This document shows, piece by piece, positions 33,733-34,638 of a DNA stretch of 64,000 nucleotides (positions are counted from its first letter, which is position 1; each line of letters starts with the position of its first letter). The stretch is taken from assembly GCF_017355875.1 (NCBI RefSeq), contig NZ_JAFEWC010000001.1, positions 2,108,001 through 2,172,000 on the forward strand, given 5' to 3'. The notes beneath the pieces are model-generated. The model was not told the DNA's origin. It did not search any database and saw nothing but the letters and a program-made list of their open reading frames with translations. The translations under genes and the position numbers were made by a program. This stretch comes from Aridibaculum aurantiacum. Its GTDB lineage: Bacteria > Bacteroidota > Bacteroidia > Chitinophagales > Chitinophagaceae.

Positions 33733-33763
33733 AATAAAAAAGGAGCAATTTTCATTGCTCCTT
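33733..33763 (-). terminator. Terminator copy 1 of the tRNA-Leu/GIY-YIG array
   Basis: AAGGAGCAAT pairs with ATTGCTCCTT around TTTC and is followed on the minus strand by an AT-rich tail. It is the same hairpin as at 34131-34156 and 34523-34548, and closes the array. Confidence 0.75.
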
Positions 33764-33778
33764 CAACCTGTGCCCGGG

Positions 33779-33799
33779 ACCTGCCTACCGCAGGCAGGT
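33779..33799. repeat. Palindromic insert A, copy 1
   Basis: An ACCTGCCT/AGGCAGGT stem with a 5-nt loop. It interrupts the fragment between the T arm and acceptor stem; removing it restores the exact tRNA sequence. Confidence 0.85.
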
Positions 33800-33833
33800 C
33801 GGAATAGAACCGATACACCCGTGAAGGCGGCAG

Positions 33834-33855
33834 ACCTGCCTGCCGGCAGGCAGGT
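33834..33855. repeat. Palindromic insert B, copy 1
   Basis: A 22-bp perfect palindrome with half-site ACCTGCCTGCC. It interrupts the anticodon loop; removing 20 bp restores the exact tRNA sequence. Confidence 0.85.
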
Positions 33856-33870
33856 TTTGAGTCTGTTGCG

Positions 33871-34113
33871 TCATTTGTCGAGTAAAGACTTTAGAAACTC
33901 TTTTCCTGAGCCTGATTTTAGATAAATCTCTCGGCTTCTTGATTCGGGGCGCGTTGGAAGTTCTTCGAAATGTAAAATGATAAAGGGAGCGTAAGGCTTT
34001 GTTGTTTTGTTCTGACCGGATTGATGTTGGTGAAATCGTCGTTCAAGATTTTCTGTTAATCCGACGTAGATGTAAGATCTATGAATGCTCTTTATTGCAT
34101 ACACGTAAAACAT
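33871..34113 (-). CDS. GIY-YIG nuclease family protein, copy 1
   Basis: The product is 80 aa from the ATG at 34113; an upstream TTG frame runs through a terminator hairpin and is not credible. It starts MFYVYAIKSIHRSYIYVGLT, the GIY-YIG signature (VY...YVG), followed by NLERRFHQHQSGQN with the conserved Arg. A catalytic-region REIYLKSGSGKEFL near residue 61 carries the conserved Glu. This is the minimal single-domain (URI-type) nuclease. Its stop codon overlaps a tRNA-Leu fragment, and a terminator plus a second tRNA fragment lie upstream. Five residues differ from copy 2. Relatives are common in Bacteroidota; their cellular role is unproven, but homing-type DNA cleavage is plausible. Confidence 0.85.
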   Translation of the reverse strand: MFYVYAIKSIHRSYIYVGLTENLERRFHQHQSGQNKTTKPYAPFIILHFEELPTRPESRSREIYLKSGSGKEFLKSLLDK

Positions 34114-34130
34114 GTAGTAAATAAAATAAA

Positions 34131-34156
34131 AAAGGAGCAATATTCATTGCTCCTTT
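34131..34156 (-). terminator. Terminator copy 2 of the array
   Basis: An AAAGGAGCAAT/ATTGCTCCTTT hairpin (34131-34141 with 34146-34156) lies between tRNA fragment 2 and GIY-YIG gene 1, with a T-rich tail on the minus strand. Confidence 0.8.
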
Positions 34157-34170
34157 AACCTGTGCCCGGG

Positions 34171-34191
34171 ACCTGCCTACCGCAGGCAGGT
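34171..34191. repeat. Palindromic insert A, copy 2
   Basis: Identical to 33779-33799: 8-bp stem and 5-nt loop at the acceptor side of the T arm. Confidence 0.85.
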
Positions 34192-34225
34192 CGGAATCGA
34201 ACCGATACACCCGTGAAGGCGGCAG

Positions 34226-34247
34226 ACCTGCCTGCCGGCAGGCAGGT
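34226..34247. repeat. Palindromic insert B, copy 2
   Basis: Identical to 33834-33855: a 22-bp perfect palindrome within the anticodon loop. Confidence 0.85.
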
Positions 34248-34262
34248 TTTGAGTCTGCTGCC

Positions 34263-34505
34263 TCACTTGTTGAGTAAAGACTTTAGGAACTCTTTTCCGG
34301 AGCCTGATTTTAGATAGATTTCTCTGCTTCTTGCTTCGGGGCGCGTTGGAAGTTCTTCAAAATGTAAAATGATGAAGGGAGCGTAAGGCTTTGTTGTTCT
34401 GTTCTGACCAGATTGATGTTGGTGAAATCGTCGTTCAAAATTATCCGTTAAACCAACGTAGATGTATGATCTATGAATGCTCTTTATTGCATACACGTAA
34501 AACAT
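34263..34505 (-). CDS. GIY-YIG nuclease family protein, copy 2
   Basis: The product is 80 aa from ATG 34505 and a near-duplicate of copy 1. Differences are E/D, L/F, K/R, S/A and D/N. The GIY-YIG core, the Arg of FERRFHQHQ and the Glu of REIYLKSGSG are intact. Of 18 nucleotide differences between the two genes, about 13 are silent, which suggests both were kept functional after duplication. The start codon lies 12 bp after the terminator hairpin of the intact tRNA-Leu, so it would be expressed by read-through from the tRNA or from an internal promoter I cannot see. It is the copy adjacent to the functional tRNA. Confidence 0.85.
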   Translation of the reverse strand: MFYVYAIKSIHRSYIYVGLTDNFERRFHQHQSGQNRTTKPYAPFIILHFEELPTRPEARSREIYLKSGSGKEFLKSLLNK

Positions 34506-34522
34506 GTAGTAAATAAAATAAA

Positions 34523-34548
34523 AAAGGAGCAATTTTCATTGCTCCTTT
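34523..34548 (-). terminator. Terminator of tRNA-Leu (copy 3 of the array hairpin)
   Basis: An 11-bp stem AAAGGAGCAAT/ATTGCTCCTTT with a TTTC loop lies seven bases beyond the tRNA discriminator and is followed on the minus strand by T-rich sequence. Confidence 0.85.
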
Positions 34549-34554
34549 AACCTG

Positions 34555-34638
34555 TGCCCGGGATCGGAATCGAACCGATACACCCGTGAAGGCGGCAGAT
34601 TTTGAGTCTGCTGCGTCTACCAATTCCGCCACCCGGGC
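34555..34638 (-). tRNA. tRNA-Leu, anticodon CAA
   Basis: This is an 84-nt cloverleaf: acceptor GCCCGGG/CCCGGGC with discriminator A, D-arm TGGCGGAATTGGTAGACGCA, and an anticodon arm GCAGA-CTCAAAA-TCTGC giving anticodon CAA (reads UUG). A long variable arm is typical of leucine tRNAs, and the T-arm is TCGGTTCGATTCCGA. CCA is not encoded. It is the only complete tRNA in the window and heads the GIY-YIG array. Confidence 0.95.

Follow-up and report, generated by a model that had tools for sequence, protein, structure and literature searches.

A tandem pair of minimal GIY-YIG nuclease genes at a tRNA-Leu locus of Aridibaculum aurantiacum suggests a family of small mobile genes that invade and restore tRNA genes

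Integrase-driven tRNA islands, prophages, and ICEs target tRNA genes and restore the tRNA 3' end. A comparable restoration is described for the mORFs of fungal mitochondria, which occur in atp6, atp9, cox2, and nad3 of Glomus and in atp6 of Allomyces. Here, an endonuclease ORF brings along the 3' end of the host gene and forms a working hybrid with it, whereby the native end is displaced; the enzyme in atp9 is of the GIY-YIG type (PMC3630166). A further close system is SegB of phages T4 and T6, a free-standing GIY-YIG homing endonuclease located in a tRNA cluster, whose phage homologues co-locate with tRNAs of many isotypes and which drives the tandem amplification of a tRNA-gene-containing segment (PMC13096335, PMC2988022). 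In this study we analyzed an array of nuclease genes and tRNA pieces within a stretch of 64,000 nucleotides from Aridibaculum aurantiacum (contig NZ_JAFEWC010000001.1, positions 2,108,001 to 2,172,000), hereafter called the window. The initial annotation of this DNA knew of no named element with such a build, a view that does not hold, since mORFs restore the 3' end of their host gene likewise (PMC3630166) and SegB is a tRNA-linked GIY-YIG enzyme (PMC13096335).

All parts of the array are located on the minus strand and follow the order that had been annotated, which is tRNA-Leu(CAA), terminator, ORF1, fragment 1, terminator, ORF2, fragment 2, and terminator. The tRNA-Leu(CAA) gene (34554-34638), presumably the restored target, is intact and is the sole tRNA that was detected in the array by ARAGORN or Rfam (RF00005, 58.8 bits). 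It is followed by a terminator-like hairpin with a T-run (AAAGGAGCAATGAAAATTGCTCCTTTTTT, 34520-34548), which recurs behind fragment 1 (34126-34155) and behind fragment 2 at the end of the array (33733-33763), all three terminators being alike. ORF1 (34263-34505) and ORF2 (33871-34113) each encode an 80-aa GIY-YIG nuclease, and it is true of both that the stop codon overlaps the start of the adjoining fragment, as had been noted before. Fragments 1 (34162-34264) and 2 (33770-33872) each cover the D-arm and everything behind it up to the 3' end of the tRNA, whereby fragment 1 aligns with the intact tRNA from tRNA position 21. The supposedly shared start GACGCA does not apply to fragment 1, which begins with GAGGCA, and two palindromic inserts per fragment had been overlooked. 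The first insert, CCTGCCTGCCGGCAGGCAGG, lies in the anticodon region between AAAA and TCTG (34227-34246 in fragment 1, 33835-33854 in fragment 2), and the second one, CCTGCCTGCGGTAGGCAGG, at the 3' end of the T arm between CCGA and TCCC (34172-34190 and 33780-33798, respectively); no tRNA base is missing at either point. Because of these two insertions, both tRNA fragments are dead. The repeat unit of about 390 bp consists of nuclease ORF, tRNA piece, and terminator, and of nothing more. A 53-aa ORF (MAELVDAADSKSAAFTG..., 34471-34632, minus strand) reads through the tRNA-Leu gene, and tRNA-overlapping frames of this kind could be miscalled as proteins or nuclease fusions in annotations.

With integrase islands the array shares the tRNA target and the restoration of the 3' end, but the element contains no integrase gene, and the repeats enclose no other gene, in agreement with the initial annotation. 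The nuclease is encoded by its own gene outside the intact tRNA and not within an intron or intein; a group I intron in tRNA-Leu was not found either, as Rfam yielded no intron family match in the window and the tRNA is contiguous. The catalytic residues, the own gene, and the presence or absence at a site between species are traits that the element shares with free-standing GIY-YIG homing endonucleases. As in mORFs, the ORF is preceded by a carried host-gene 3' end and the native end is found downstream, which applies to the window as well as to the 3'-type loci and the tRNA-Met locus described below. However, mORFs reside in protein genes of mitochondria and have ORFs of about 420-1020 bp (PMC3630166), whereas the present element resides in bacterial chromosomes at many tRNA isotypes, encodes only 80 aa, and has a hairpin-interrupted displaced part, a 5' mirror type, and common arrays. 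SegB, in turn, is phage-borne and located between tRNA genes, with no reported isotype preference, restored tRNA end, or hairpin fragments, whereas the bacterial element was not found in phage sets. By these comparisons, the family would work like a bacterial, tRNA-specific mORF; it is neither an integrase island nor an intron. We consider it probable that the array consists of two tandem copies of a minimal, free-standing homing element which targets tRNA genes and restores the gene that it enters, whereby the homing itself is what we infer.

Both window ORFs match Pfam PF01541 far above its cut-off (E 3e-16 for ORF1 and 1.4e-15 for ORF2). The protein is a bare GIY-YIG catalytic domain, of which PF01541 covers residues 2-71, and Y5, Y16, G18, R26, H30, and E62 are invariant among 15 aligned members. 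For the predicted fold (mean pLDDT 95.8) the nearest solved structures are UPF0213 proteins, followed by SLX1 and the I-TevI catalytic domain. The UPF0213 proteins 1zg2 and 1ywl, both deposited as hypothetical proteins, are also the nearest solved sequence relatives (E 2.5e-15) and likewise present a single minimal domain. I-TevI has a DNA-binding region beside its catalytic domain, which is common but not universal among such enzymes; a separate region of this kind is absent from the 80-aa protein. The comparison of ORF1 with ORF2 gave a dS of 0.305 and a dN of 0.027, i.e., a dN/dS of 0.09, and other homologue pairs gave 0.09-0.21. These ratios indicate that the nuclease ORFs are under purifying selection and that both window genes are maintained.

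The initial annotation had expected GIY-YIG homologues to be enriched near tRNA genes, and a strong enrichment was observed. Homologues in 60 relatives adjoin tRNA genes of many isotypes, and in the phylum sample a match was obtained in 193 of 296 genomes. The relatives and the phylum sample together provided 141 small GIY-YIG loci, which are best matches rather than a random draw and were found with a profile consisting for the most part of tRNA-linked sequences. In 124 of these loci an intact tRNA lies no more than 400 nt away, and all neighboring tRNAs (162 of 162) are on the nuclease strand. An independent sample, for which named genomes were searched with one consensus protein query, yielded a tRNA within 400 nt in 60 of 80 loci and the same strand for 78 of 78 tRNAs; its hosts belong to more than 20 phyla, including Bacteroidota, Ignavibacteriota, many Patescibacteria, Planctomycetota, Nitrospirota, Chloroflexota, and Chlorobiota. 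Both samples together amount to 240 of 240 neighboring tRNAs on the nuclease strand. As a rough estimate, a genome of 4-5 Mb has about 40-50 tRNA genes, so that a random gene would qualify in about 1% of cases. The arrangement recurs beside more than 12 tRNA isotypes in many genomes, and this same-strand recurrence together with the dN/dS of 0.09 makes the window arrangement more than a product of chance. Further GIY-YIG genes of the window genome, of which two are long and one is small, are not beside tRNAs. This third small homologue (L070 2243-2479, G000:C3:895242-895478) is 33% identical and has neither an adjoining tRNA nor a flanking repeat.

A partial copy of the same tRNA is present across the ORF in 144 of the 162 GIY-tRNA pairs, whereby two types can be distinguished. 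In the 3' type, to which the window belongs, the intact tRNA is located upstream of the ORF and a 3' fragment downstream of it; in the 5' type, the mirror image, a hairpin-interrupted 5' fragment precedes the ORF and the intact tRNA follows. Single units are flanked by tRNA pieces in the same way, and tandem arrays comprise up to 8 near-identical units. The inserts in the fragments are precise, since 123 of 126 cause no loss of a tRNA base; they have a median length of 22 nt, and 77 show a folding z-score below -2. More of them than expected lie in the T-loop (33 versus 12.6) and in the D-loop (26 versus 15.7), and their insertion point is constant across hosts, for instance between GTTC and GAAT in tRNA-Ser 14 times, whereas the hairpin sequences differ. 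Inverted repeats with arms of at least 6 were detected in 79 of 121 fragments, compared to 34 intact tRNAs and about one shuffled fragment; some fragments have no clear hairpin. At two loci (L220 1501-1725 with its flanks, and L294) a single nuclease ORF lies between two different tRNA genes, possibly the record of a change in target isotype.

In order to find empty sites, as the initial annotation had proposed, the tRNA-Leu(CAA) locus was examined in relatives. Seven congeners keep the hscB-tRNA-Leu(CAA) arrangement without the element, and presence or absence was also seen at two better-resolved sites, all occupancy comparisons being made between species and not strains. A variant tRNA-Leu(CAA) 3' half (GTGTATCGG...CCGAT) is common to the window genome and the congener G001 (L120, L125), unlike the six other congeners (L121-L124, L126, L127), and this distribution is out of step with HscB similarity; it is possibly the trace of an earlier exchange of tRNA ends. 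The first of the better-resolved sites is a tRNA-Met locus in the genus of G227, which was located via its upstream gene (anchor locus L267, Flavobacterium defluvii). Here, 30 loci with the tRNA comprise 7 occupied, 21 empty, and 2 scarred ones, the latter with hairpin fragments but no nuclease. These two (L321 about 1922-2155, L322 about 1987-2122) carry solo hairpin-interrupted tRNA-Met fragments beside the intact tRNA and look like scars of lost elements. At the second site, the atpG-tRNA-Ser(TGA) locus of another genus, 15 genomes are empty and 5 occupied, three by the 5' type and two by the 3' type, so this locus is invaded from either side.

The terminators of the tRNA-Met locus bear on the question of which part of the array moves. 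Each of the seven occupied loci has the ACACCACTT...GGTGTTTTT terminator between the intact tRNA and the ORF, and the ACACCACTT terminator is absent from all 21 empty loci and from both scars. Behind the displaced hairpin fragment, three other kinds are found: in L326 the rear terminator is of the GGGACAAAGAAG kind of the empty relatives L320 and L325, in five other occupied loci it is of the GCTTCAGAG kind that is common among empty sites, and in L314 it is of a third kind. As the front terminator is uniform and native-type terminators lie behind, the terminator travels with the nuclease and is foreign to the host, as is the carried part of mORFs, and by implication the tRNA 3' end ahead of it would have come along. 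For the window, where both copies are alike, a foreign origin of the carried tRNA end and terminator is suggested by analogy. Similar terminators on both copies are found at about half of the 3'-type loci, which show the arrangement but not where the carried part came from.

Another possibility is a long target-site duplication, in which the ORF alone would be mobile and far-apart nicks would duplicate half of the tRNA together with the terminator at each insertion. It would fit that about half of the 3'-type loci have like flanks behind the two copies, often to a point just past the terminator, and the G227 array fits as well. A duplication would, however, copy the native terminator, and this is contradicted by the tRNA-Met locus, where seven of seven occupied loci share one kind of front terminator while the native rear terminators are of three. 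Front and rear flanks also differ at many other loci of both types. In addition, a GIY-YIG hydrolase is not known to have strand-transfer activity. Long target-site duplication had been our first model; it was dropped upon the tRNA-Met terminator comparison, and we now regard it as unlikely.

The nuclease tree, which comprises 119 nucleases (one per locus) and about 80 columns, leaves many forks unresolved, but it evidently tracks the tRNA isotype more than the host. It requires 33 isotype changes versus 79.9 for shuffled labels (minimum 72 in 1000), and the nearest neighbor shares the isotype in 93 of 119 cases versus 15 expected, 52 of these pairs coming from different host families. The window nucleases fall into an 11-row tRNA-Leu group (SH-aLRT 98). 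When the loci from named genomes were added, 61 isotype changes were counted versus 123 shuffled. Isotype lineages matching between phyla were not found (7 of 40 versus 3.7 expected, the 7 being inflated by mixed Ignavibacteria/Patescibacteria labels and two duplicate rows), and none of the nuclease lineages on the combined tree is shared with Patescibacteria. With respect to the 5' and 3' types the tree shows only weak structure (28 versus 33.8 changes).

It could also be that the displaced hairpin fragment is a functional RNA, whose hairpins bind the nuclease and whose tRNA arms guide it to the matching gene, which would make the system a minimal RNA-guided GIY-YIG homing element. This reading draws on the tracking of isotypes by a protein with no evident DNA-binding domain, on the hairpins located precisely in tRNA loops, and on the slow change of fragment and hairpins in the window and several other 3'-type arrays. 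In the window, fragment and palindromes (100 nt) differ at 3 sites between the two copies. The fragment evolves slower than synonymous sites in the window and in L100, L102, L103, L105, L057, and L089, but not in L110; L107, L115, and L101 were excluded from this comparison as 5' type or last unit. The slow change of the tRNA part, though not that of the palindromes, could result from gene conversion with the tRNA, and conversion between both window fragments is a possible cause of the slow change. Overall, we judge an RNA-guided element to be quite unlikely.

The palindromes themselves might be the true mobile element, with the nuclease as their mobilizer, similar to the RAYT/REP system, in which a Y1 transposase mobilizes palindromes. 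The 20-nt perfect palindrome CCTGCCTGCCGGCAGGCAGG and its variants form a family with 19 copies at up to 2 mismatches in the window genome (G000), and four of the nuclease-carrying genomes (G000, G024, G029, and G057) have 16-24 copies each, whereas most congeners have none. However, G002 has 7 copies and no detected nuclease (the genome is 71% complete), and hairpin families vary by host while the insertion points are constant. Furthermore, the remaining palindrome copies that were checked are not beside tRNA genes, so that this mobilizer model appears very unlikely. About 17 copies lie beyond the two of the window array (L006, L009-L022), mostly in short or non-coding frames; those read for context revealed no common rule, and none checked adjoined a tRNA.

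A passive tandem duplication, by which a domesticated nuclease near tRNA genes by chance was duplicated together with tRNA pieces but never moved laterally, would account for the arrays of up to 8 near-identical repeats. It is highly improbable in view of the same-strand linkage with more than 12 isotypes in many phyla, the congeners with empty sites, the one terminator-nuclease unit ahead of differing native terminators, and the single units that are also flanked by tRNA pieces. Finally, a toxin that cleaves tRNA, with the fragments as decoys or immunity RNAs, would agree with the isotype-specific nuclease lineages, the structured tRNA-like piece adjoining the nuclease, and the preference of inserts for tRNA loops, but it is hardly credible, as the nearest enzymes of the same fold act on DNA, the restored tRNA is unchanged and would also be cut, and the element-type terminator and displaced native end indicate mobility instead.

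According to the initial annotation, an element had brought a tRNA 3' end and a terminator of its own into the tRNA gene, which was thereby restored while the old end was displaced. This suggestion is supported by the tRNA-Met terminators, the empty congener sites, and the tRNA linkage, and neither of the two results that the annotation had named as refuting it was obtained. According to the homing model, the element would enter a tRNA gene of one isotype. In the 3' type it would bring a tRNA 3' half and terminator ahead of the nuclease ORF, reconstituting an intact tRNA and pushing the native 3' end, hairpin-interrupted, downstream; in the mirror type a hairpin-interrupted 5' half would be left upstream and the tRNA remade after the ORF. 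The nuclease presumably cuts the uninvaded tRNA gene, and host recombination via the tRNA sequence would copy the element in, a homing without intron or integrase in which the tRNA serves as both target and homology arm. Because tRNA function has to be maintained, an insertion would survive only if it supplied the missing half, and this would explain the two mirror types. Arrays would grow through recombination between repeats. The hairpins may keep the displaced copy from being cut; alternatively, they may act through the fact that element loss by repeat recombination leaves a dead tRNA, as in the 3' type recombination 5' of the hairpins would delete the nuclease and leave such a tRNA behind. 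The D-loop, which had been put forward as cut site, is no more than a candidate, because fragment start points vary between lineages and the point of hairpin insertion would qualify equally well. Some observations count against the homing reading. As the empty target and the restored tRNA are identical, the donor would have to be spared, and the 80-aa catalytic domain has no evident DNA-binding part for the choice of isotype; the like terminators at about half of the 3'-type loci and the absence of a phage or plasmid vehicle count against it as well. Searches of phages, plasmids, and viral contigs found no vehicle, a weak absence, since single protein queries reach close relatives only. Why the donor escapes cutting is a problem that has been discussed for SegB, too (PMC13096335).

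A tRNA-linked GIY-YIG family in bacterial chromosomes was not found described in the open-access literature, although an earlier description elsewhere is possible. Hundreds of look-alikes beside many kinds of tRNA genes in many bacterial phyla suggest that small mobile genes which would invade tRNA genes and keep the tRNA functional form a family that has mostly escaped notice. The invading gene measures about 240 bp, is found at many tRNA isotypes in many bacterial phyla, and appears to need only a bare nuclease domain and host recombination. If this is true, few autonomous mobile elements known would be as small, and it would account for many of the puzzling tRNA fragments and of the GIY-YIG genes overlapping tRNAs that occur in Bacteroidota and Patescibacteria. 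The family also presents a natural collection of nucleases of about 80 aa, with tRNA targets that differ between lineages, and target choice, donor immunity, and array growth become testable in cultured Flavobacterium species.
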